Positions 181 through 11,264 of a stretch of 42,759 nucleotides of DNA are shown here, in pieces; positions within the stretch are counted from its first letter, which is position 1; every line of letters starts with the position of its first letter. Location of the stretch: the NCBI RefSeq assembly GCF_014859695.1, contig NZ_JACUTS010000011.1:1-42759 (forward strand), written 5' to 3'. Position numbers and translations under genes: made by a program. The DNA comes from Sulfurimonas sp. Its GTDB lineage: Bacteria > Campylobacterota > Campylobacteria > Campylobacterales > Sulfurimonadaceae. The notes beneath the pieces were generated by a model, which saw nothing but the letters and a program-made list of their open reading frames with translations, was not told the origin of the DNA and did not search any database.

Positions 181-1623
181 CTATTTTCTCCGGGTGTTTT
201 GTTTGATTGAAACTATGAATTGGTAGATAAGATATACTACTGCGCTTTTAAAAATAAGCAAATCAATCGTTATTGTTTCAGTTGTCATAATTGAAAATGG
301 ATTTATTAAATTTGAAATATTGTCCAATGTCATACTACTATATAATAAAAAGAGCATCATGGTAATAAAATGTGCAGTTGTTATGCAGTTTAGTTTTTTT
401 ATAAATAAAAATTTTTTACAAATCAAAATAAACATACTTATAAAAGCTACAAATAAACCAGCAAATAAAACTCTGTCTGGTAAATATACAAAACCATCTT
501 TTAAAAACTTGTAAACATAAGAAATATTAATTATCCAAAGCAAAACCAAAACCCAATCTTGCGAATGATTAGATGAAATTTTATGGAGTTTAAAAACAAT
601 CCAATCCTTAAAATTATCTTTTTTAATTTCTGAAAGCTCTTCATCTCTTTTGTGCATCTCTAACGCATAAAATTTATTAGCTTCAATAATATTGTCTTGC
701 TTTTCAAAAGAGTGTTTGATGATTCTAGCAGTTTCACGGTTTTCAATATTTTTAGCTTTTAAGACATTTTCATTCTCATTTTTCATATCTAAAAAATTCA
801 CTTCTTTTTTAAAAATTGCATTTTTGAGATCAATTGTTTTATGTACTATTGCTTCATTAAAAAATACATTTTCCTCAAATAAACAATAATTAAATTTTGT
901 ATCTTCATAAAAATGTGTTTTGACAAATATAGCCATACCTCCAAAACGAGCTTCATTAAATTTAACTTTTTTTAAATTGCTTTGGCTAAATGATGCAGAA
1001 TCCATAAAATTTATATTTTCCATATTCAGTAAAGCTATATTGTTGCAATCTATTAAATGAAATAATTTATAAAAAGTTTTATCATTTAACTTGAGTTTTT
1101 GATCTTTAAAATCACAACTTCTAAATTCAATATAAGCATTAAGTGAGTCATTCAGGTGCACTTCTTTTTCAAAAGTACAGTTGTTAAAAATTACAGATTC
1201 TTTAAACTCGTACCGTTGTAGATTTACCTCATCTAAGAAAGTGCAGTTATTAAATTCGATATGGCATTTTTCTATCAGCTTGTCGACATAATAACCTTCT
1301 GGGCTTTGTTCACAATCATGGTTGAGGTAACTTTCATGAAGAAAATAAAAATTGCTAATTTCTGAAGTTGCGTCATATCGGTCATCTTCATAATCTTTTT
1401 GAAATTTTGGAAAAACAATAGAATTATATTGAATATAATAGTGATCTAACTCTTCTTGTCCTCTTTCACAAGTATATTTTAAATTTAAATCATTTTGAAT
1501 TTGTTGCCAAAATTTATCTTTGTTTTTATTCAGAGAATGGAGGATACATAAATTAAATTTAGTACCAAAAATAGTATTTTTTTTAAATTCTTGATTACAT
1601 TTTAAACAACTAAAAAATTTCAT
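181..1623 (-). CDS. Pentapeptide-repeat protein with four C-terminal membrane segments
   Basis: A 480-residue protein. Residues 6-29 carry a possible zinc site (C6-x2-C9 and C26-x2-H29). Residues about 120-280 hold degenerate pentapeptide-like repeats, with phrases such as FNNCTF, FRSCDF and FNEARF. A charged linker (about 295-335, ETARIIKHSFEKQ and following) is of the kind that often joins such repeats to membrane domains. Four hydrophobic segments follow at about 356-374, 385-407, 413-433 and 452-473. The ATG overlaps the end of the upstream FRG gene by four bases, so the two are probably co-translated. The gene is more AT-rich than the ATPase gene two steps upstream. Its biochemical function is unknown; a membrane effector or channel partner of the FRG protein is my inference from architecture and coupling. 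Confidence 0.7.
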   Translation of the reverse strand: MKFFSCLKCNQEFKKNTIFGTKFNLCILHSLNKNKDKFWQQIQNDLNLKYTCERGQEELDHYYIQYNSIVFPKFQKDYEDDRYDATSEISNFYFLHESYLNHDCEQSPEGYYVDKLIEKCHIEFNNCTFLDEVNLQRYEFKESVIFNNCTFEKEVHLNDSLNAYIEFRSCDFKDQKLKLNDKTFYKLFHLIDCNNIALLNMENINFMDSASFSQSNLKKVKFNEARFGGMAIFVKTHFYEDTKFNYCLFEENVFFNEAIVHKTIDLKNAIFKKEVNFLDMKNENENVLKAKNIENRETARIIKHSFEKQDNIIEANKFYALEMHKRDEELSEIKKDNFKDWIVFKLHKISSNHSQDWVLVLLWIINISYVYKFLKDGFVYLPDRVLFAGLFVAFISMFILICKKFLFIKKLNCITTAHFITMMLFLLYSSMTLDNISNLINPFSIMTTETITIDLLIFKSAVVYLIYQFIVSIKQNTRRK

Positions 1624-2630
1624 TTTTCATCTTTACTAGAAAATACATTTTTGATATGCTGACTTGAATATTCTATTTCAGGATACACTTTGTCAATAGT
1701 TACACCTAGTGTACCTAAGGCTTTCCTAATGGAATCAGCAAAGCTTTTATCACACATCATAGCTTCTGCGCCAAAGTCACATAGCTTAAAAGTATTCAGT
1801 TTAAAATGTTCATCATCTGCACATTCTTCCAAAGAAAATGCTTCTTTTTTTCCATCATTTAAACCAAATATTGCGAACAATCCAGCTTGATTGATTATTC
1901 GTTGAGAGTTATGTTTAGGCTTGACAAATACTACTGACTTATCTAAGTGTTCCATCCAAATCATATCTTGAAAATAAGGCTTTTCACCTTTAATTTCATG
2001 AAGTAAATATTGTAAATCATGATTATTTTGAGTTATCAATTTTCCTAAATCATTTTTTAAATTTTTATTTAATTTTTTACTTTCTGATGAATTTATATAT
2101 GAAAATCCTCTTTTACCCATTCTTTTGCATACGTTATATTTTCCTATATTTCCATTATCGTTGAAATAATTATCAACAATATTAACATTAAAACTATCAT
2201 CTATTTTTGAAAAATTTGCAAATACAGAAACTGCATCGCTATCGTAGTATTTTATTTTATTTTTTTTTATGGCAACGATTTTGATAGTTGAGCAAAAATT
2301 CGCATAATCATCTGTGTCAACAGCCATATAAAGTGCCAATAGTGGATTTGTGGTAAAATCAAGCAACCTCGTAGGCAGTCCATAGTGTTGCATAATAGAA
2401 AGTTTGTCAATTGTAGTTTTTGCATTATCAAAAATATTTGGATATCTCAGCTCAAGTTCTCTAAAAATTTTGTGCTCATTTTTTAAAAAACCATCCCTGA
2501 ATATACTTGGAGTTGTCGACTCATGAAATTTATTTTCACCACGATAAAATATTTCGTAATTATGCAAATCTATGGATTCTTTAGTTATGTACTCATCTAT
2601 TTTTTTTAGAAAGTTTGTTATTGGTTCCAT
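1620..2630 (-). CDS. FRG domain-containing protein
   Basis: A 336-residue protein with the two FRG family signatures: the name-giving F-x-R-G at residues 28-31 (FYRG) and the block MQHYGLPTRLLDFTTNP at 80-96. The FRG domain is common in phage and bacterial accessory regions, often alone or fused to other conflict domains; its activity is not settled. No membrane segment or signal peptide is apparent. The gene starts nine bases after the ATPase gene ends and its stop overlaps the pentapeptide-repeat gene by four bases (ATGA), giving a tight three-gene unit. It is very AT-rich with long A/T runs, which suggests acquisition separately from the flanking backbone genes. Confidence 0.8.
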   Translation of the reverse strand: MEPITNFLKKIDEYITKESIDLHNYEIFYRGENKFHESTTPSIFRDGFLKNEHKIFRELELRYPNIFDNAKTTIDKLSIMQHYGLPTRLLDFTTNPLLALYMAVDTDDYANFCSTIKIVAIKKNKIKYYDSDAVSVFANFSKIDDSFNVNIVDNYFNDNGNIGKYNVCKRMGKRGFSYINSSESKKLNKNLKNDLGKLITQNNHDLQYLLHEIKGEKPYFQDMIWMEHLDKSVVFVKPKHNSQRIINQAGLFAIFGLNDGKKEAFSLEECADDEHFKLNTFKLCDFGAEAMMCDKSFADSIRKALGTLGVTIDKVYPEIEYSSQHIKNVFSSKDEK

Positions 2631-2639
2631 ATTTTTCCC

Positions 2640-3788
2640 TTATTTCTCATAATCATACTCAAGCCCGATATCCAATCTTCCCTCAAGTGCAACCATTTTA
2701 TCGTCATGTTGCTGCAAGAGGATTTTTAAAAATATATCTACTATCTTGTACTCGCCTTTTTGCAGTTTTGCTATAAGTCCCATGTTTTCTAGTGATACTC
2801 TAGTGTTGTAAAGTGTGGCTGAATCCACATCATGACTAAGGTTATTTGCCATTTCATAGACCACTTCAAAATGGTGCTTTTTAGATTTAAGTTTTGCTAT
2901 AAGCTCGTCAAGATAGGCTCTGTTTTCTATTACCCTAAAGCTTATAGCCTCAAGAGCGGAGCTGTAATCTATGGGCTTTTTTTCTAACATGGCGTTTATG
3001 TAAAGCGTTTGGAGTACTTTTGCGCTGTACTCAGGATGACCTTCTAAAAAAGTTATGGTGCTACGCAAAAGCTCTGCGTCATAGACAATGCCTTGTTTGT
3101 CAAACTCTGTTTTGGTGTAGTCAAAAAGTTCATCAGCGTCAAGACCGTCTAGCTTTATCACACTTGCAAAATGAAAAAATGGGGATGCTTTGCTCTCAAA
3201 GATTTCAGTCATTATCGATTCGATGCTTCCTAAAAAAACATATGTAATATTTTCATGGTGCTGTGCAACTGAACGAAGCACTTCTAGGATATTTTTGTCA
3301 TAGAGTTTTGTGATGTCTTGAAACTCATCAAATATAACTTTGATATTTGCACCTTTTGAGGTCGCTATGCTATCTACTACGTTTAAAGAGTGGATAAAAA
3401 GCTCTATGGGGTCACTCTCTTTACTAACCAAATCAATAGTCACTTCTGCCATGTCAGGAATGGAGATGGTTTTGATAGATTTTAAAAGCTTTAAAAGTGA
3501 GTTTTTTGTCTGTCTGATGAAGTTTTCAATCTTTACAAAACTATATGCACTGTCTACTATTTGTTTGGACAACGAATCTAGAGAGTGATGCAGTCTTATG
3601 TCAATGTAGATAAAATCATAACCTTTTTCGTAGTCAAACATATGCTTGATGAGCGATGTTTTTCCAAATCTTCTAGGAGCTTTTATCATAATATGCTGAT
3701 TGTTATCAAGATATGATTTGAAAAGTGGGAGATGTTTTTTTCTATCTATAAAATCTTTTCCTTTTACGGGGCTTCCACTTTGAAACAT
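2640..3788 (-). CDS. P-loop ATPase of the archaeal ATPase/STAND-like group
   Basis: A 382-residue protein. The Walker A region APRRFGKTS lies at residues 37-45 and the Walker B VIFDEFQD at 151-158. A C-terminal section (about 285-365) has the look of a winged helix (VYEMANNLSHD, then TRVSLENMGLIAKL). This layout matches PF01637-type ATPases, which combine an N-terminal NTPase with a winged-helix tail. The start ATG has an AAAGGA site five bases upstream. It is the first gene of the unit with the FRG and pentapeptide-repeat genes. Base composition is closer to the backbone than that of the two genes after it, so the ATPase may be older in the genome and the other two added behind it. Its client or trigger cannot be read from sequence. 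Confidence 0.75.
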   Translation of the reverse strand: MFQSGSPVKGKDFIDRKKHLPLFKSYLDNNQHIMIKAPRRFGKTSLIKHMFDYEKGYDFIYIDIRLHHSLDSLSKQIVDSAYSFVKIENFIRQTKNSLLKLLKSIKTISIPDMAEVTIDLVSKESDPIELFIHSLNVVDSIATSKGANIKVIFDEFQDITKLYDKNILEVLRSVAQHHENITYVFLGSIESIMTEIFESKASPFFHFASVIKLDGLDADELFDYTKTEFDKQGIVYDAELLRSTITFLEGHPEYSAKVLQTLYINAMLEKKPIDYSSALEAISFRVIENRAYLDELIAKLKSKKHHFEVVYEMANNLSHDVDSATLYNTRVSLENMGLIAKLQKGEYKIVDIFLKILLQQHDDKMVALEGRLDIGLEYDYEK

Positions 3789-4024: not shown

Positions 4025-6370
4025 TCACTCCCTACCGCACATTACTCTATAGTCGCAAAACAGGCAGTTTTTCGCATCTTCACACTTGCTAAAGTTTACA
4101 TCTTCTATGTTTAGCAAATCATTCACATGCGACTCCAGAAGTGCCAATTTCTCTTTTAAAAGCGGTTCATCTACTATTTTGGACTCTTTTAGGTCGTAGT
4201 ATCCGCACTCTGTTATATTGCCTAAGCCGCCCGCCAGCAGATAGTAGAACTCCAGCTGGAAGTCTGTAGCCTCTGTGAAGTTTTTCTCAGTGTAGAGAGG
4301 ATATGCGCCTGTTTTGTAGTCAAGTACGGCTATCTCATTTGCACATTTATCTATTCGGTCTATTACGCCCTCTAGTGTCACTCCTGCGAAGCTTGTCTGC
4401 ATCTTCTCTTCACATCTATATACCTGCCAGCCCTTTGCAAATCTCTTTACTTCGTTTTCGCAAAACAGTTCCATTCTTCTCTTTTGCATAGCTATAAGGT
4501 ACTTCTCAAGCTCACTCTCTCCGCACGCATTATCAAGCTCTGCATGCAGATCTTTTTTCAGCATCTCTACGTCGTCATAAGAGCTTTTTTTGCCATAGAG
4601 CTCTTTTAGCGCTTCATGAACATCCAAGCCGATTTCATACTCTTTAGGCATATCTTTTGGTATCTCATGTCCCTCTATATGCTCTATATATTTGTGGTAA
4701 TATTTTCTCTTGCATGTAAGAAATGTTTTTAGTTTTGTGGCTGAGAGGTTTTTGCCCCTGAAACTGTACTCTAAAACTATCTCCTCTTCCTCTTTGACTT
4801 TTGGCGCTGGGCTTGCAAAAAGCACTCCGGCATAAGAGTCTTCGCCGTAGATGCTACTCTCTTTTATGCCAAGCTGTTTTAAAAACCTTGAAGCGCTGCT
4901 CTCTTTGGATTTTACAAAGGAGATTGCGACCTCTTTGCTTGAGTTTATAAGCATCTCATAGTAATGTTTTTGCAGATTTTCCCTGTCGCTCATGGTCGGC
5001 AGGTTTGCCATCTCTCTTACATGTGTGTTTAAAAACATATCTTTATCGCTTTTTTTAGGAACGTTACTGTCGCTAAAATCAACTATCACAACCGCGTCAA
5101 ATTCAACAGAGCGGGTCTCTAAAACACCCATGACGGTTATCTTTCCGCCTCTTACATCATCGATTGTCCGGCTTGAGAGCCTTTGGAGGAAAACAAGCAG
5201 CAGAGATTTCACGCTCATCTCTCTCATAAAAGGGAGGATGTTTTTAAGACCGTAAAGCTCCTCATTAAAAATCTTAAGCTCTCTTTTGGAAGAAAAACTC
5301 TCTTTGTAGCTCTTTAAAAACTCTAATATCTCTGTATCTTTGCTTTTTTTTGCATAGATTGAGCGAAGCGGAGCGTAAAACTCATCCCCGACTCTCTCTA
5401 GTCTCGCCTCATTCTCTTTAGAATCCTGCTCAATATAGCTGCATGTCGCATCGAGTTTCTCATAGATGGAGGTTGTGCTAAACGGCTCTCCCATGGCAAA
5501 GTTAAAGTTTGATTTTGTATCGAAACTCTTAAGCAGCTGCGCAAACTTCTCATCGGGCAAAATAACTGCAATGTTTTCAGCCCTGTAGCCCATCTGCACA
5601 AAGTCATATATCTTTTTTTTGACAAATGCCGCCTGCAAAAGAGGCTCGCTAAAGGACTCACATGTCACTTTAGTGTTTTGCTCTATCATCTGTTTGTGAA
5701 ATATCTCTTTTGTATTTAGCGAGATTTTATATCTGTTTCCAGCCTCGAGTCCTATGCCTAAAGATAAGAATTTTTTTTGCATCTTGGTGTTAAATCTGCT
5801 CGCACTAAAGAGAATATTTATGCTGCTGAACTCGCAGCACTTCTCTAGAAGTTCAAGCTCAAAGTTTGTCAAATGACCATCAACATGAAGCTCTATATTT
5901 TTATATTTTTTTATGTACGCTCTGTTGAAAGTGTAGAGTTTTGGCAGAAATATTCTATCTAGAAGTTTCCGCTCCCTGCAGAGTGCCTCATATCTTACAT
6001 ATAGCTCCCCAAGTATGGCTATATGCTCCTCATACTCGCCGTAGATGTCCGAGGTTGCCAAATCTTTTATGTCGTACATCTCTGCACTTAACTCTTCAAA
6101 AAATTTAAATATGTAGGATGAGTTTTTTGTAAAGGTGAAAAAGTTTCTCTGGATTTGAAGATTTGTGAAATTTTTAAAGTCGCTTGCCTCAAGCAGAAGC
6201 AAAATCCTGCCATCTTCATCGAGCGCCTTAAAATCTTCGACCATACAGAGCTTTGAGATAAATTCACTCATAGTAATATAGTTTGGAAGAAAGAGGGTAG
6301 AACCCTCTACATGGAGAAGTTTTTGTCTTATTGCGCGAGCCGAGGGGAGGACAATCAAAGATTCATTCAT
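4025..6370 (-). CDS. addB: AddB-like nuclease with iron-sulfur PD-(D/E)XK domain
   Basis: A 781-residue protein with an N-terminal inactivated superfamily I helicase-like region (no Walker A lysine motif; LPSARAIRQKLL at residues 8-19) and a C-terminal RecB-family nuclease. The nuclease core includes GLDVHEAL, then GVIDRID, LDYKTG and QLEFYYLLAG, which supply the usual His, Asp, Asp-x-Lys and Gln/Tyr residues. The final residues form a C-x2-C-x5-C cluster (NCLFCDYRVMCGRE), with an earlier cysteine in FLTCKRKYYHKY, as in the four-cysteine iron-sulfur site of AddB. AddB works with AddA to process double-strand ends for recombination; addA is not in this window. The gene follows the FixH-like gene by 14 bases, but its function is unrelated to respiration and a weak ribosome site precedes its ATG. 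Confidence 0.8.
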   Translation of the reverse strand: MNESLIVLPSARAIRQKLLHVEGSTLFLPNYITMSEFISKLCMVEDFKALDEDGRILLLLEASDFKNFTNLQIQRNFFTFTKNSSYIFKFFEELSAEMYDIKDLATSDIYGEYEEHIAILGELYVRYEALCRERKLLDRIFLPKLYTFNRAYIKKYKNIELHVDGHLTNFELELLEKCCEFSSINILFSASRFNTKMQKKFLSLGIGLEAGNRYKISLNTKEIFHKQMIEQNTKVTCESFSEPLLQAAFVKKKIYDFVQMGYRAENIAVILPDEKFAQLLKSFDTKSNFNFAMGEPFSTTSIYEKLDATCSYIEQDSKENEARLERVGDEFYAPLRSIYAKKSKDTEILEFLKSYKESFSSKRELKIFNEELYGLKNILPFMREMSVKSLLLVFLQRLSSRTIDDVRGGKITVMGVLETRSVEFDAVVIVDFSDSNVPKKSDKDMFLNTHVREMANLPTMSDRENLQKHYYEMLINSSKEVAISFVKSKESSASRFLKQLGIKESSIYGEDSYAGVLFASPAPKVKEEEEIVLEYSFRGKNLSATKLKTFLTCKRKYYHKYIEHIEGHEIPKDMPKEYEIGLDVHEALKELYGKKSSYDDVEMLKKDLHAELDNACGESELEKYLIAMQKRRMELFCENEVKRFAKGWQVYRCEEKMQTSFAGVTLEGVIDRIDKCANEIAVLDYKTGAYPLYTEKNFTEATDFQLEFYYLLAGGLGNITECGYYDLKESKIVDEPLLKEKLALLESHVNDLLNIEDVNFSKCEDAKNCLFCDYRVMCGRE

Positions 6371-6384
6371 AGGCTAATTATAAC

Positions 6385-6891
6385 CTAATATTCTATGATT
6401 TCCTTGGCTCTCGTATCTGCTTTTACGTTGTAAAATCTATGAAGTTCCTCTACCGCTACTTTAGCCATAACGTCCCATCTTCCCTCTTGCGGAAGCTCAA
6501 TCGAGTCAAAAGTGTAGACTCCGTTTTCTATTTTTGGATTGCTTAACTCTTGATCATGCTTATGGTTGTTTGGTCTGGTTACAATAACTTTTATTTGGGC
6601 ATCATTTACAGGGTTAGAATCAATATCGCTAACTCTATATTTTATAGTGCTGTTTTGCGTACTGAGTCCATCTGTTATATACTCTATTTTATACTTTTTG
6701 TTAAATGCTATAGCAGATTCTAAGATATCGTTTACTTTTGCATTTGCTTCATGATAATCCATCATATAGGTATCACTTTTCTCAACAGGAAGAGTATTGG
6801 CAACTATTACCGTAGCTACACAAGCGCCAAATATAAATATGATTGAAGCAGCAATCGAGTAAGGCCAAATTCTACCGTTGCTTAGATTCAT
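6385..6891 (-). CDS. FixH family membrane protein
   Basis: A protein of 169 residues when started at the ATG at 6889-6891. That start has AGAAGG seven bases upstream, whereas the longer in-frame start at 6942 lies deep inside the upstream gene and lacks such a site. A membrane anchor (about residues 8-32, WPYSIAASIIFIFGACVATV) precedes a periplasmic beta-rich domain typical of FixH/CcoH (KYRVSDIDSNPVNDAQIKVI, then VYTFDSIELPQEGRWDVMAK). FixH/CcoH proteins assist cbb3 oxidase maturation, and this gene ends the cco cluster, which fits. It overlaps the TPM-like gene by 20 bases. No ccoG, ccoI or ccoS is present here. Confidence 0.75.
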   Translation of the reverse strand: MNLSNGRIWPYSIAASIIFIFGACVATVIVANTLPVEKSDTYMMDYHEANAKVNDILESAIAFNKKYKIEYITDGLSTQNSTIKYRVSDIDSNPVNDAQIKVIVTRPNNHKHDQELSNPKIENGVYTFDSIELPQEGRWDVMAKVAVEELHRFYNVKADTRAKEIIEY

Positions 6892-7564
6892 TTTTTTGCC
6901 TTCTAATATATAATTTTCTTTTAATGTAAAGAAATATACCATAAAAAATAAAACCGTAGAACAACACTTTTACAAGAAAAATGCTCGTCTGATTTGCACT
7001 GCCCACTGCATTCTCTAGCACAATTCCCTTGCTTTTGGCAATCTGCTCTGCAATATCTGCATAGCCGTTAAACATAGAACCTGAATACTTCCCTAAAAGC
7101 TCGTCCTCTTTTGCTTTTTGAGCAAGCAGAGGCAAAATCGTACCGCCGCTGCTCATGTCGCTAAAATCCATGTTGAGAAGTGCGACAACAAATGCTTGAA
7201 CGGATGATGAAACAGGGCTTAACACCTGTTTTTTATCAAAATACTCATATAATGATGTCTGGTTTGCATAAATATCAACTTTTGAGTCCATTTCAGAAAA
7301 CGTAAGCAAAATAGTAGGCTCGCTAAAATCTTTCATCAGCTCTTTTTCATACTCTACTATACTCATCTTCTGCGGCAACTCTTTAAGCATTACAAGCCTT
7401 AGAGATATTCCGGTTTTTTGATGTAGCTCTAAGCCAAGTTTTTCAACCTCTACATTAAACGCAGGATTAAAAATAAGTTCATCTTTATATAAATAGTTTG
7501 CAAAAAGAGAAGTGTTAAAAAGCAGTGCTAGTATGAGGGCACCGAGCCCTCTTGAAAACTTCAA
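6872..7564 (-). CDS. Membrane protein with signal peptide and TPM-like domain
   Basis: A 230-residue protein with a cleavable-looking signal peptide (residues 1-22, ending SLFA-N), an extracytoplasmic domain and one membrane helix near the C-terminus (about 195-215), followed by a basic tail (KRKLYIRRQKNESKQR). The domain pattern resembles TPM proteins: a helix (VEKLGLELHQKTGISLRLVM), then a strand and a turn (ILLTFSEMDSKVDIYAN). That resemblance is by eye and moderate. The position inside the cco cluster, between the 29-aa peptide and the FixH-like gene, suggests a role in oxidase assembly or stability. No catalytic motif is recognised. Confidence 0.6.
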   Translation of the reverse strand: MKFSRGLGALILALLFNTSLFANYLYKDELIFNPAFNVEVEKLGLELHQKTGISLRLVMLKELPQKMSIVEYEKELMKDFSEPTILLTFSEMDSKVDIYANQTSLYEYFDKKQVLSPVSSSVQAFVVALLNMDFSDMSSGGTILPLLAQKAKEDELLGKYSGSMFNGYADIAEQIAKSKGIVLENAVGSANQTSIFLVKVLFYGFIFYGIFLYIKRKLYIRRQKNESKQR

Positions 7565-7573
7565 AGAAATTTC

Positions 7574-7663
7574 CTAGCCGATAAAAAGATGATTTGGCGT
7601 TAAAACCGCGTAAAGAGTATACAGAGCCATTATAACCAGACCCCATGAAATGATTTTTTCCAT
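7574..7663 (-). CDS. 29-residue single-span membrane peptide in the cco cluster
   Basis: A short ORF that fills the otherwise empty 109 bases between the DUF4006 gene and the TPM-like gene. It begins MEKIISWGLVIMALYTLYAV and ends with a short polar tail and TAG. The ATG (7661-7663) is preceded by GGAGTG with good spacing, and the sequence is one hydrophobic helix with a charged N-terminus. The size and setting resemble the tiny accessory subunits found with terminal oxidases (CcoM/CydX-like in concept), but no homologous family is recognised, so the role is inferred. It leaves nine bases before the next ATG. Confidence 0.6.
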   Translation of the reverse strand: MEKIISWGLVIMALYTLYAVLTPNHLFIG

Positions 7664-7673
7664 TCTACACTCC

Positions 7674-7883
7674 TTACTTAACATCTACCAAATGCTTAGC
7701 GTTATCAACGCTCTTCATTTGTATAAGATGCTCATCTTTAATATCATAAAAATTTGTCGCACTTGTGTTTTGAACATTTATTGCCCAAGCTGTTAATCCA
7801 ACCAAAATAACTAAAAGCAAAACAGTTGCTATTAGCATGCCGGTTATACCGTCGAGAGAAAATATACTTCTGTTATCATTCAT
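7674..7883 (-). CDS. DUF4006 family small membrane protein
   Basis: A 69-residue protein with one membrane helix (about residues 13-35, ITGMLIATVLLLVILVGLTA) and a polar C-terminal segment. It matches DUF4006 proteins, which typically follow ccoP in Campylobacterota. It starts ten bases after the ccoP stop, with GGAGTCAGGG upstream of its ATG, so it belongs to the same transcript. Its function is unknown; the constant association with cbb3 oxidase genes suggests an accessory subunit or assembly factor. Confidence 0.8.
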   Translation of the reverse strand: MNDNRSIFSLDGITGMLIATVLLLVILVGLTAWAINVQNTSATNFYDIKDEHLIQMKSVDNAKHLVDVK

Positions 7884-7893
7884 CCCTGACTCC

Positions 7894-8820
7894 TTATTTA
7901 CTTATGTTAACGATGTAAGCGCCAACAGCTTCTTTTTGCTTATCGTTAAGTCTGTCAAATTTGGGCATAACTCCGATTATGCCTTTTTTGCCATGTGTGA
8001 GAACATTGTTAACCAATGCAATATCAAATTCTCTAACATTTGGGCTTAAACCCTCGACACCTCTACCGTCCTCTCCGTGGCAAGATGCACAAGTACCTGC
8101 AAATATATCCGCGCCCTTACCGCTAAAACCGTTAGCGACATAAGCAGAAACTATATCTATTTCAGCATCGGTTATAGGAGCATAGCCTGTGTTGGCATTC
8201 ATTAACCCATTGCGATCGGGCATCGGCATCTCAAAACCTATAAGTTGGTTGTTTGAACCATTCTCAATAACAGCCTTGACTGATGCTTCATCCATTCTAA
8301 TATTTAAATTAGCCGCTTTCCCGTCAATACCATCAGCACTGAGACCATGGCAAACTTTACACTCTGCCAAGAAAACAGATTCGCCCATCTCCACAAGCTT
8401 ATCGCCCGTAATGTCTTTATATTTTACTTCAAATTTTGCATTGTGCGCAGCAACATCTTCGTTGTACTCACCGATTTGTGAATATGCATTTACCGGATAA
8501 CCGATTGTAAAATACCACATTCCCCATACCATAGTAAGTAAAAACATAACTGCCCAACCGGTCGGAACACTGTTTTTAAACTCGCCAATTCCATCCCAAT
8601 TTTCATCCGCAAGCTCACCGGATGCAGTATCGACCTGCATCTGACGTACATACTTGATTACGACGAAAACAGTAATTATTACTAGTGCAATCGCTCCCGT
8701 AACTGCAAGTACATTGACAATATCATCATTTAAACCGCCCTTTGATCCACCGACAGATAAATATGTCAGTATCAACATCAAAGCAGTAAATATGATTCCC
8801 CCAAGATAAAGCTTATTCAT
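7894..8820 (-). CDS. ccoP: cbb3-type cytochrome c oxidase subunit III (CcoP), dihaem
   Basis: A 308-residue membrane-anchored dihaem cytochrome c. Two N-terminal hydrophobic helices (about 5-23 and 36-57) and a further helix at about 88-106 precede two haem-binding motifs, CKVCH at 154-158 and CASCH at 244-248. Likely axial methionines lie downstream of each (for example in MPMPDRNG and GVMPKF). CcoP passes electrons from soluble cytochromes to CcoO/CcoN in the microaerobic high-affinity oxidase. The ATG overlaps the ccoQ stop by four bases. Confidence 0.95.
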   Translation of the reverse strand: MNKLYLGGIIFTALMLILTYLSVGGSKGGLNDDIVNVLAVTGAIALVIITVFVVIKYVRQMQVDTASGELADENWDGIGEFKNSVPTGWAVMFLLTMVWGMWYFTIGYPVNAYSQIGEYNEDVAAHNAKFEVKYKDITGDKLVEMGESVFLAECKVCHGLSADGIDGKAANLNIRMDEASVKAVIENGSNNQLIGFEMPMPDRNGLMNANTGYAPITDAEIDIVSAYVANGFSGKGADIFAGTCASCHGEDGRGVEGLSPNVREFDIALVNNVLTHGKKGIIGVMPKFDRLNDKQKEAVGAYIVNISK

Positions 8821-9053
8821 ATCTCTCTCCTATTTCTCTGCGCACCCTCAAGGGTGCTTTTGTCATCAGACTTCGGTGACACCGGAGCATCATCCAAGTC
8901 GTCTTTAAGTGCCATATCACTATAACTCTCATAATCTACTCCATCAACATCTTTCTTCTTGGTATAGAGATGGTATATATAACCATACAACGCTATGACA
9001 AGCAATATTATTAATGTAAAGTATCCGTATGCTTGTAATTGTGCTATATCCAC
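8817..9053 (-). CDS. ccoQ: cbb3-type oxidase subunit CcoQ
   Basis: A 78-residue protein with a single membrane helix (about residues 10-30, YFTLIILLVIALYGYIYHLY) followed by a charged, Asp-rich cytoplasmic tail, the normal CcoQ architecture. It sits between ccoO and ccoP with a nine-base gap and a four-base overlap. CcoQ stabilises CcoP in the complex in other bacteria. Identification rests on position, length and topology, because the family is poorly conserved in sequence. Confidence 0.85.
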   Translation of the reverse strand: MDIAQLQAYGYFTLIILLVIALYGYIYHLYTKKKDVDGVDYESYSDMALKDDLDDAPVSPKSDDKSTLEGAQRNRREI

Positions 9054-9062
9054 TACAAACCT

Positions 9063-9755
9063 CTACTTAAGACTATTCATATATGCAATTAATGCGACTA
9101 TCTCAGGAATCTCGCCACGTGCCACAGCATCTTTGACATCTTGATCTCTCATATCTGCTGCAATAAGCTTCGCCTCTTGGAGTGCCAACTCATTTGCTTC
9201 TGCTATACTAGCGCCCATTTTAACAATTTTTTTAGAACCGTCTCTCATAGGTACCGGCTCATTGTAAGGAACTGAGAAGTATTGTGCTACCGTCAACTGC
9301 TCTGCAAAAGCAGTATCAATATCTGCTTTATTTGCAAACATCCACTTGTATGCAGGCATAATCGAGCCTGGAACAACAGAAGCAGGATCTTTCATATGAT
9401 TTTCATGCCAGTCGGTAGTTCTATAGTTACCAACACGCATCAAATCAGGTCCAGTTCTTTTTGAACCCCATAAAAATGGTCTGTCATATGCATACTCGCC
9501 GCTTAGAGAGTAGTGACCGTAGCGGTCAGTCTCTGATTTAAACGGACGAACAAGCTGCGAGTGACATGCATTACAGCTGTTTTTAATATAAACGTGACGA
9601 CCTGCCAGCTCTAAAGTAGAGTATGGAGCCGTACCGATTACGGGACGAGATGCTTGAGCAAAGTTTGGAAGAATTTCAACCAGACCGGCAAAAGCAATTG
9701 TTACGAATACACCTACCGCAAAAAAGAACGGATGTTTTTCTAACCAATGAAACAT
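9063..9755 (-). CDS. ccoO: cbb3-type cytochrome c oxidase subunit II (CcoO), monohaem
   Basis: A 230-residue protein anchored by an N-terminal helix (about residues 9-28) with one haem c motif, CNACH at 61-65, followed by SQLVRPFKSE as usual in FixO/CcoO. The segment WGSKRTGPDLMRVG and the later methionine in GSIMPAYKW fit the axial-ligand region. The subunit carries electrons from CcoP to the haem-copper subunit. It begins 15 bases after ccoN ends. Confidence 0.95.
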   Translation of the reverse strand: MFHWLEKHPFFFAVGVFVTIAFAGLVEILPNFAQASRPVIGTAPYSTLELAGRHVYIKNSCNACHSQLVRPFKSETDRYGHYSLSGEYAYDRPFLWGSKRTGPDLMRVGNYRTTDWHENHMKDPASVVPGSIMPAYKWMFANKADIDTAFAEQLTVAQYFSVPYNEPVPMRDGSKKIVKMGASIAEANELALQEAKLIAADMRDQDVKDAVARGEIPEIVALIAYMNSLK

Positions 9756-9770
9756 ATTAAATCCTTTCTA

Positions 9771-11264
9771 TTACGCGCCCATAGGCGATGCATTTTGTAG
9801 CTCACGCTCTTCAACAGGGCGAGCAGACATAGTTTTATAGATGTTATAAGCAAACATCAAGAAACCAACTAAATAGAGTAGACCACCTATACCACGAATA
9901 GTGTAGTAAGGATGTAAAACAGTAACCGTATCAATAAATGAGTATGCTAAGTTACCAAACTCATCATGCGCACGCCACATCATACCCTGCGTAATACCTG
10001 CAATCCACATAGAAGTGAAGTATAGAACAACACCCAGTGTTTGGATCCAGAACTGCGCAACCATTAAAGACTTAGAGTAAATCTCACGTTTAAATACACG
10101 CGGAGCCATATGGTAAAGCGCAGCCATAATCATAAAGCCTACCCAACCAAGAACACCATCATGAACGTGACCAACAATCCAGTCGGTAAAGTGTGCTATC
10201 GCATTAACTGATTTAATCGCTTGAATAGGACCCTCTAATGTTGAGAACATATAAAAAGTCGAAGCTAAAATCATAAACTTAATCAACGGAGAAGCCGCAA
10301 CTTGTTGCCACTCACCCTTCATTGTAAGAAGCATGTTGATAGCCGAACCCCAAGACGGAAGAATCAATATTATGGAGAATATTGAGCCCATTGTCTGCAT
10401 CCAATCCGGAACGGTTGAATACAAAAGGTGGTGCCCGCCAGCCCATAGATAAACAAACATTAGTCCCCAGAAAGAGAGAAGTGAGAGTTTATATGAGTAG
10501 ATTGCCTGACCAGACTCTTTTGGTAAAAAGTAGTAGATCATAGCAACAATAGGAACCGTAAAACCAAATGCAACTGCATTATGCCCGTACCACCACTGAA
10601 CTAACGCATCATTTGTACCTGCGTACATAGAAACAGAGTGATACCATGCACCTATGCCAGATTCACCTGCAGCCGATGCTCCAAGCATTGTAGGAATAGC
10701 CATATTGTTAAAAAGATAAAGCATAGCTATACCTAAGAATGTAGCAATATAGTACCAAATAGAGATATAGAGTGATTTTTCACGGCGTATACCGATAAGA
10801 CCGAAAAGACCCATACCCCAGATAACCCATACAACTACAACTCCAATATCAATCGGCCACTCAAACTCCGCATACTCTTTTGAAGATGTAACACCCGCAA
10901 AAAGCGAAACGACAGCTGCTGTAACAACAACCAAATAGAGCCAGAAGTGTATCTTGCCCAAAGTCATCAAGAACTTTGACTCCGCCATTGACACTTTTAA
11001 AACACGTTGACCAACATAATACCACGTTGCAAAAACACCGCTTAGCGTAAAACCAAATATAACCGCATCTGTATGCAGCGGACGAAGACGACTAAAGTTA
11101 GTGTATTCAGCCAAGCCTTCTCCAAGAATTAAGTTAACCCCTGGAAAAGCAAGCTGAAACGCTAAAATTACACCGATGAGCATACCAACAATTCCTAAAA
11201 CAATTGTTGTAAACATGAACATCTTTGCAACTGTATAGTCGTACTCTAATGGACGATTCTCCAT
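9771..11264 (-). CDS. ccoN: cbb3-type cytochrome c oxidase subunit I (CcoN)
   Basis: A 497-residue, about 12-helix haem-copper subunit. Histidines in the expected places are H64 (RPLHTDAVIFGF, low-spin haem), H228 (WWYGHNAVAF, CuB), H278-H279 (GGHHLLYSTVPDW, CuB) and H366/H368 (GHVHDG, haem ligands). It reduces oxygen to water and pumps protons in the inner membrane, and is the first gene of the cco operon. The ATG has a strong AAGGAGG site seven bases upstream. The cluster order N-O-Q-P is conserved. Confidence 0.97.
   Translation of the reverse strand: MENRPLEYDYTVAKMFMFTTIVLGIVGMLIGVILAFQLAFPGVNLILGEGLAEYTNFSRLRPLHTDAVIFGFTLSGVFATWYYVGQRVLKVSMAESKFLMTLGKIHFWLYLVVVTAAVVSLFAGVTSSKEYAEFEWPIDIGVVVVWVIWGMGLFGLIGIRREKSLYISIWYYIATFLGIAMLYLFNNMAIPTMLGASAAGESGIGAWYHSVSMYAGTNDALVQWWYGHNAVAFGFTVPIVAMIYYFLPKESGQAIYSYKLSLLSFWGLMFVYLWAGGHHLLYSTVPDWMQTMGSIFSIILILPSWGSAINMLLTMKGEWQQVAASPLIKFMILASTFYMFSTLEGPIQAIKSVNAIAHFTDWIVGHVHDGVLGWVGFMIMAALYHMAPRVFKREIYSKSLMVAQFWIQTLGVVLYFTSMWIAGITQGMMWRAHDEFGNLAYSFIDTVTVLHPYYTIRGIGGLLYLVGFLMFAYNIYKTMSARPVEERELQNASPMGA

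Follow-up and report, generated by a model that had tools for sequence, protein, structure and literature searches.

The stretch of DNA analysed here (hereafter, the window) comprises 42,759 nucleotides from Sulfurimonas sp. and carries on its minus strand a cbb3 oxidase operon in the order ccoN-ccoO-ccoQ-ccoP-ccoX-ccoY-ccoZ-ccoH. The gene of the catalytic subunit, ccoN (9771..11264), encodes a product matching CcoN of PDB 3mk7 (phmmer E 1.7e-135), and is followed by ccoO (9063..9755), encoding the monohaem cytochrome c subunit and matching the open reading frame in the ccoO slot of Campylobacter jejuni (phmmer 5e-101), ccoQ (8817..9053; PF05545, with TIGR02736 above cut-off), and ccoP (7894..8820), encoding the dihaem cytochrome c subunit with domains PF14715, PF13442, and PF00034. 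Next come ccoX (7674..7883), a 69-aa orthologue of Cj1486 with the domain DUF4006 (PF13179, E 3.3e-30) and a counterpart reading frame in C. jejuni locus L185, then ccoY, the subject of this study, and ccoZ (6872..7564), which starts with TTG and encodes a 230-aa TPM-like orthologue of Cj1484 (phmmer 9e-21 to the C. jejuni frame in the same slot) whose TPM domain scores below the Pfam cut-off (PF04536, E 0.064). The last gene, ccoH (6385..6942), encodes a FixH-family orthologue of Cj1483 (PF05751, E 1.5e-10; phmmer 2e-17 in L185). Comparisons with the PDB returned zero matches up to E 1 for CcoZ, and for the CcoX profile only six weak matches, all to one calcium channel, at E 0.56 or worse. 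With ccoN, ccoO, ccoQ, ccoP, ccoX, ccoZ, and ccoH all identified around ccoY, the placement inside a cbb3 oxidase operon proposed by a sequence-only reading of this DNA was confirmed.

Other features of the locus were also observed. The ccoH frame taken from its first ATG overlaps ccoZ by 71 nt, and an internal ATG at 6891 (MNLSNGRIWPYS) looks the likelier start. Downstream of the operon, on the same strand, lie genes for a 781-aa PD-(D/E)XK nuclease protein (PF12705, window 4025-6370), an ATPase_2-type ATPase (PF01637, window 2640-3788), and an FRG-domain protein (PF08867, window 1620-2630); a defence pair made up of the last two is no more than a guess.

The ccoY frame occupies 7574..7663 of the minus strand, starting with ATG at 7663 and ending with TAG, and its direct translation is a 29-aa single-helix membrane peptide, MEKIISWGLVIMALYTLYAVLTPNHLFIG, present in one copy in the source genome. 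It lies 10 nt from the ccoX stop and 9 nt from the ccoZ start, and a ribosome-binding site region with the motif AAGGAG (7664..7675) sits in the ccoX-ccoY gap, just 5' of the ATG, overlapping the ccoX stop codon. As judged from Kyte-Doolittle hydropathy alone, the peptide contains one hydrophobic stretch, with a 19-residue mean of 1.92. The good ribosome site, the single hydrophobic helix, and the close fit between the DUF4006 and TPM-like genes that had been claimed for this frame are therefore all present. An alternative in-frame ATG at 7684 would extend the product to 36 aa and run into the DUF4006 gene; this longer reading was disfavored, as no in-frame ATG, GTG, or TTG occurs upstream of ccoY in any of the 29 closest other loci (L002-L030), which makes 29 aa the likely length.

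The ccoY frame is a real gene. Among 72 distinct coding sequences of close homologues (protein identity of at least 69%), pN/pS was 0.195, with pN lower than pS in 2556 of 2556 sequence pairs, and K3, A13, T16, V20, T22, N24, H25, and L26 were invariant. An ATG start was found in 71 of the 72 and a Shine-Dalgarno-like motif in 68. As a frame control, reverse frame 1 gave a pN/pS of 0.38, a low value that we suppose to arise because wobble positions mirror coding ones, and it was interrupted by a stop in 69 of the 72 sequences. Both strands of the 42.8-kb window hold six comparable frames (26-45 aa, with a hydrophobic stretch and a Shine-Dalgarno-like motif), and the short length of ccoY is the one point that speaks for a chance open frame in the intergenic gap. 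However, small frames defined by 26-45 codons, a one-helix hydrophobic stretch, and a Shine-Dalgarno-like motif appeared in only 50 of 3460 dinucleotide-shuffled post-ccoX stretches (1.4%), and together with the pN/pS value, the homologues found across genomes, and the constancy of the slot described below, this rules out a chance origin, to which we attach a negligible probability. It is also very improbable that ccoY acts only in cis, as a leader whose translation sustains the passage of ribosomes from ccoX to ccoZ while the peptide itself is idle: the tight spacing on both sides would suit such a role, but the low pN/pS and the identity of T22, N24, and H25 in all 72 homologues indicate selection on the residues.

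The position of ccoY between ccoX and ccoZ proved to be highly constant. The first 50 loci, which were fetched via the peptide itself, all showed the order ccoX, peptide, ccoZ, with about 1.5 kb between ccoX and the peptide in four of them (L031, L035, L046, and L048) and ccoH missing in two (L021 and L047), both of which end early. Independently of the peptide, loci were fetched by ccoX/DUF4006, and a small one-helix frame followed ccoX in 85 of 85 distinct loci, 101 loci having been reduced to 85 by dropping 16 whose 300-nt stretch duplicated that of a counted locus with a profile hit. One part of this set was limited to the best 80 of 329 relatives of ccoX and hence is mostly close kin of the window, and a further 23 loci include 17 of family f14, picked largely since CcoY is weak or missing there. 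A CcoY profile match lay beside ccoX in 68 of the 85 loci (64 of 64 named public records, and four of the 21 loci picked largely for a weak or missing CcoY), and the remaining 17 held in the slot a one-helix frame of 26-45 codons with a Shine-Dalgarno-like motif.

When all distinct ccoX loci followed by 200 nt of sequence were pooled, peptide-fetched loci included, a gene or small frame was found in the slot in 173 of 173: 145 had an adjacent profile hit (-60 to 120 nt, a range chosen by us, like the cut-offs), six a displaced one, and 22 were assigned by position only. In one of these loci, L115, the adjacent profile hit fails the small-frame criteria. The full set of ccoY, ccoN, ccoO, ccoP, ccoX, ccoZ, and ccoH was available for 99 loci, a number considered too small for an analysis of coevolution between CcoY and its partners. 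True absence was considered for the 22 loci without a profile hit (E 0.01) and was rejected, since all 22 carry a one-helix frame with a Shine-Dalgarno-like motif ahead of it in the slot. No ccoX locus lacking a small frame was found among the loci examined, and no complete ccoN cluster lacking ccoX, ccoN having been searched in part of the 397 genomes of the wider sample described below. Conservation of the frame in related cco clusters, on which the sequence-only reading had been made to depend, was thus unbroken in the pooled loci as in those fetched by ccoX.

A single-sequence search detected CcoY at E up to 0.1 in 80 of 99 genomes, the source genome included. All of the 19 unmatched genomes except G089 can be accounted for. 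Six of them (G029, G068, G071, G074, G088, and G091) gave no match to ccoN, and the single one in G061 scored far below the cut-off; the contigs of G079 and G095 stop short of the place of ccoX; the CcoY profile does match G065, G073, G084, G085, and G090, and marginally G067 (E 0.093); and the slot holds a frame in G072, G060, and G066, read by eye in the last two clusters. The wider sample comprised 397 genomes of the phylum, all labeled with the same genus, family, or order, of which 281 were matched by the CcoY profile (E up to 0.1, with marginal scores in the weakest cases) and 380 by DUF4006. The 17 genomes without DUF4006 comprise 15 without a ccoN match and two with contig ends, within ccoN in G451 and just after ccoP in G302. 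Some genomes gave a second profile match. The match in G378 runs through a TAA that probably precedes the start, as a 30-aa open frame remains. Restriction of CcoY to the source genus was rejected, given the matches beyond it in both genome and profile searches. Neither DUF4006 nor ccoN was matched in G249, G283, and G368 (genus g41, family f11) or in the f16 genomes G074, G091, G114, G123, G124, G165, G296, G367, and G444, all rated 96-100% complete, which suggests that whole lineages have either lost the cbb3 oxidase or never acquired it.

Two families showed diverged forms of the peptide. In family f14, probably Helicobacteraceae, DUF4006 is present while a CcoY match is mostly missing, and the 21 f14 loci read share a peptide type of their own, roughly M(K)xTxLEKIL...P..FLHLV. 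In family f9, probably Arcobacteraceae, most loci read have another type, roughly MEKIIG...RVFVG, with the usual tail in L197. Comparison by hhalign of CcoY with the diverged forms from the loci without a profile hit gave a probability of 75% (E 2.5e-5) in local mode and 8.7% (E 0.001) in global mode; their homology to CcoY may be regarded as moderately supported, with caution because hydrophobic helices can align by composition. Among individual loci, L179, L180, and L182, from three single-contig genomes of 1.5-1.6 Mb (genus g39, perhaps Helicobacter), have a 35-codon one-helix frame, MKFTTLEK(I/V)LALMVVATILMTI..., right after ccoX and overlapping its stop (ATGA). In family f9, genome G402 contains a pair of cbb3 clusters, L194 and L195, and in L194 the ccoX gene and a ccoY-like frame are followed by a 524-aa frame, without a match to ccoZ or ccoH. 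Two DUF4006 matches were observed in G437.

The gene in the ccoX-ccoZ slot of C. jejuni provides the identity of the peptide. Part of a published cj1485c primer matched five of 120 f11 genomes with up to two mismatches, and exactly in G180 and G163. For the ten gene-specific parts of the cj1483c-cj1486c primers, nine were exact in G180 and one had two mismatches, whereas G163 matched three exactly and five with one or two mismatches and gave no match for the other two; on these matches G180 was taken as C. jejuni. Its slot holds a 33-aa frame, MSKALEYLIVIGLVAAAAITAWSVLTVNHLHIG, matched by the CcoY profile at E 9e-15 and accompanied by seven other cluster genes. The window peptide and this frame are identical at 15 of 29 residues without gaps, a value reached by none of 100,000 shuffles. 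From the shared slot, the profile match, this identity, and the primer-identified genome, the window peptide is assigned by sequence comparison as the orthologue of C. jejuni Cj1485 (CcoY), a member of a known, little-studied family. The two differ in length (29 and 33 aa) and in the tail, where P and F of the window peptide correspond to V and H in C. jejuni. Searches of the 29-aa protein against the Pfam and NCBIfam models returned no family at E up to 0.1.

A 33-aa one-helix protein yields few tryptic peptides. The C. jejuni genes between ccoP and ccoH were named in 2021 as ccoX (cj1486c), ccoY (cj1485c), and ccoZ (cj1484c), and Cj1485 was described as a protein of 33 residues with one helix, so that the slot and the single helix are shared with the window peptide, as is a similar C-terminal tail (PMC8267372). 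According to the same study, ccoX is essential for cbb3 activity, whereas deletion of cj1485c or cj1484c significantly lowers cytochrome c oxidase activity, assayed with ascorbate/TMPD, yet leaves some, and copper fails to rescue either deletion (PMC8267372). The knockout cassette is said there to limit polar effects, a statement made of the ccoI and ccoS mutants; genetic complementation of the cj1485c mutant was not found in the available text, where the word "complementation" is absent and "complemented" applies to ccoNOQP and copper, and a residual polar effect on ccoZ or ccoH is therefore possible (PMC8267372). Mass spectrometry of BN-PAGE gel bands named CcoN, CcoO, CcoP, CcoH, CcoZ, CcoX, QcrA, QcrB, and QcrC, and CcoY is not named in the text available (PMC8267372). 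In our literature search, which left most subscription papers outside, this was the only study of these genes by title or beginning of abstract. In a transcript study of 2020, cj1485c appears under the description "putative periplasmic protein" (PMC7099621). The suggestion that the protein had been missed is consequently not supported, as it was cataloged in 2020 and named a year later (PMC7099621; PMC8267372), while the view of it as a conserved one-helix gene of the oxidase operon was borne out, its C. jejuni orthologue being needed for full cbb3 activity (PMC8267372). The first observation is true and the guess sound, but the protein already had a name and a published phenotype.

The distribution of charges and conserved residues suggests how CcoY may be arranged in the membrane. 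Lysine and arginine were more numerous on the N side of the helix in 130 of 133 distinct CcoY sequences and on the C side in none, the count covering those of the 141 distinct sequences that were long enough, with the diverged f14 forms left out. By the positive-inside rule, the end rich in lysine and arginine stays cytoplasmic. CcoY would accordingly place its N-terminus in the cytoplasm and its tail outside. The tail motif TPNHL(Y/F)(I/V)G is the most constant part of the protein: with weighting, and with rows not reaching the tail left out, the T and G that bound it do not vary, H reaches 90%, and N 86%. Among the helix residues, A17 and V24 of the profile (A13 and V20 of the window peptide) are conserved at 98% and 96%, and T20 (76%) and L13 (78%) fall on the same side in steps of 3-4 residues, a pattern that would be expected for packing on another protein. 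CcoY may thus be pictured as spanning the inner membrane once, with a cytoplasmic N-terminus and the conserved tail TPNHLFIG in the periplasm. There it would most likely bind the CcoNOQP oxidase or the partner proteins CcoX, CcoZ, and CcoH, and stabilize or help assemble the active enzyme from within the membrane, so that its loss would lower oxidase activity without abolishing it. That ccoY is a gene of the cbb3 oxidase operon whose one-pass product binds and stabilizes or assembles the oxidase or its partners is, in our judgment, quite probable, and CcoY is likely to serve alongside CcoX, CcoZ, and CcoH as an accessory subunit or an assembly factor.

A FixG/CcoG-like ferredoxin protein of 477-489 aa is encoded between ccoX and ccoY in some f4 and f18 members, on the plus strand of L031 (4753-6207), L035 (4564-6033), and L046 (4640-6073), and in the same slot of L048, L201, and L204; the Pfam FixG_C model matched in L031 and L046, the two of the six loci that were run. 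The insert is not present in L033, also of f4. In all six loci where it parts ccoY from ccoX, ccoY is kept beside ccoZ and ccoH, although these loci come from two families only and hence represent few independent events. This arrangement would fit a biogenesis helper that works with CcoH and CcoZ during assembly and then leaves, without becoming a lasting subunit, an explanation that is also favored by the resemblance of the insert to CcoG, a biogenesis factor (PMC8267372, Table 1), and by the BN-PAGE bands in which CcoY was not named (PMC8267372). However, cluster L194, in which ccoX and a ccoY-like frame occur but neither ccoZ nor ccoH is matched, stands against a close tie of CcoY to these two proteins, and loss of CcoI or CcoS is partly rescued by copper while loss of Cj1485 is not (PMC8267372), although the latter argues only against a role in copper delivery. 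We regard a purely transient helper as a possible but unlikely explanation.

The TPM-like neighbor raises another explanation, namely that CcoY, together with CcoZ, is part of a bridge linking the Qcr (bc) complex to the oxidase, so that the CcoY tail docks on the periplasmic face of the supercomplex. Ascorbate/TMPD feeds the oxidase directly, bypassing Qcr. The fall in activity of the cj1485c mutant in an ascorbate/TMPD assay (PMC8267372) therefore places the defect at least partly at the oxidase, against a role confined to such a bridge, and the PDB search with the CcoY profile gave nothing convincing. In favor of the bridge, CcoZ is reported to be structurally similar to the mycobacterial supercomplex protein MSMEG_4692 and to occur together with Qcr and Cco proteins in a single BN-PAGE band (PMC8267372), and the protein of the next tag, MSMEG_4693 (CtaJ), is also modeled in the mycobacterial supercomplex CIII2CIV2 (PMC8523172), the adjacency of the two genes being deduced from their numbers. 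The CcoY tail, if outside, would also be on the same side as the CcoZ domain. Nevertheless, CtaJ following a TPM-like protein, as CcoY adjoins TPM-like CcoZ, is an analogy only, since MSMEG_4693 has at least 78 residues (PMC8523172) and the CcoY profile matches no CtaJ chain in the PDB. Such a bridge appears improbable, more so than the transient helper.

As an accessory subunit or assembly factor, CcoY would at most work in the manner of other small one-helix partners of terminal oxidases, such as CcoM, CioY, and CydX. At E up to 10, the CcoY profile matched only two MacA sequences in the PDB, at E 2.6, and no CcoM chain, and homology to CcoM was rejected on this search. Entry 5djq, within the PDB set searched, presumably holds CcoM. 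In the cbb3 oxidase of Pseudomonas stutzeri, CcoM is a single-helix subunit of 36 aa (PMC10433244), said to be needed for the stability of the complex and not for activity, whereas loss of CcoY lowers activity in C. jejuni (PMC8267372). The C. jejuni CioAB oxidase has CioY, of 34 aa and one helix, which co-precipitates with CioA (PMC11955535). Like CcoY, CioY and CydX are very small proteins with a single helix that accompany terminal oxidases, although these oxidases are of the bd type and the operons are different.

What is added here to the published work on C. jejuni is the spread of ccoY through the order sampled, its diverged forms, the tail motif, and the charge pattern indicating an N-in/C-out orientation. 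Campylobacter, Helicobacter, and the free-living bacteria related to them reduce oxygen at high affinity mainly with the cbb3 oxidase. A tentative extension, which we hold to be somewhat less likely than not to be right in full, is that CcoY is a constant and so far unmodeled subunit of all campylobacterial cbb3 oxidases wherever ccoN-ccoX occurs, including the drifted lineages that appear Helicobacter-like and Arcobacter-like, and that its periplasmic tail, with the near-invariant histidine, docks on or tunes the oxidase together with CcoX, CcoZ, and CcoH. A gene of about 29-41 codons that accompanies the cbb3 cluster so constantly, yet is without a Pfam, NCBIfam, or convincing PDB match, is easily skipped or called hypothetical, and the family and its diverged forms tell structural and proteomic workers which additional one-helix density or intact peptide to expect. 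The function of CcoXYZ is ranked among the major unanswered questions in PMC8267372, and the CcoY family offers a clear genetic test of it.
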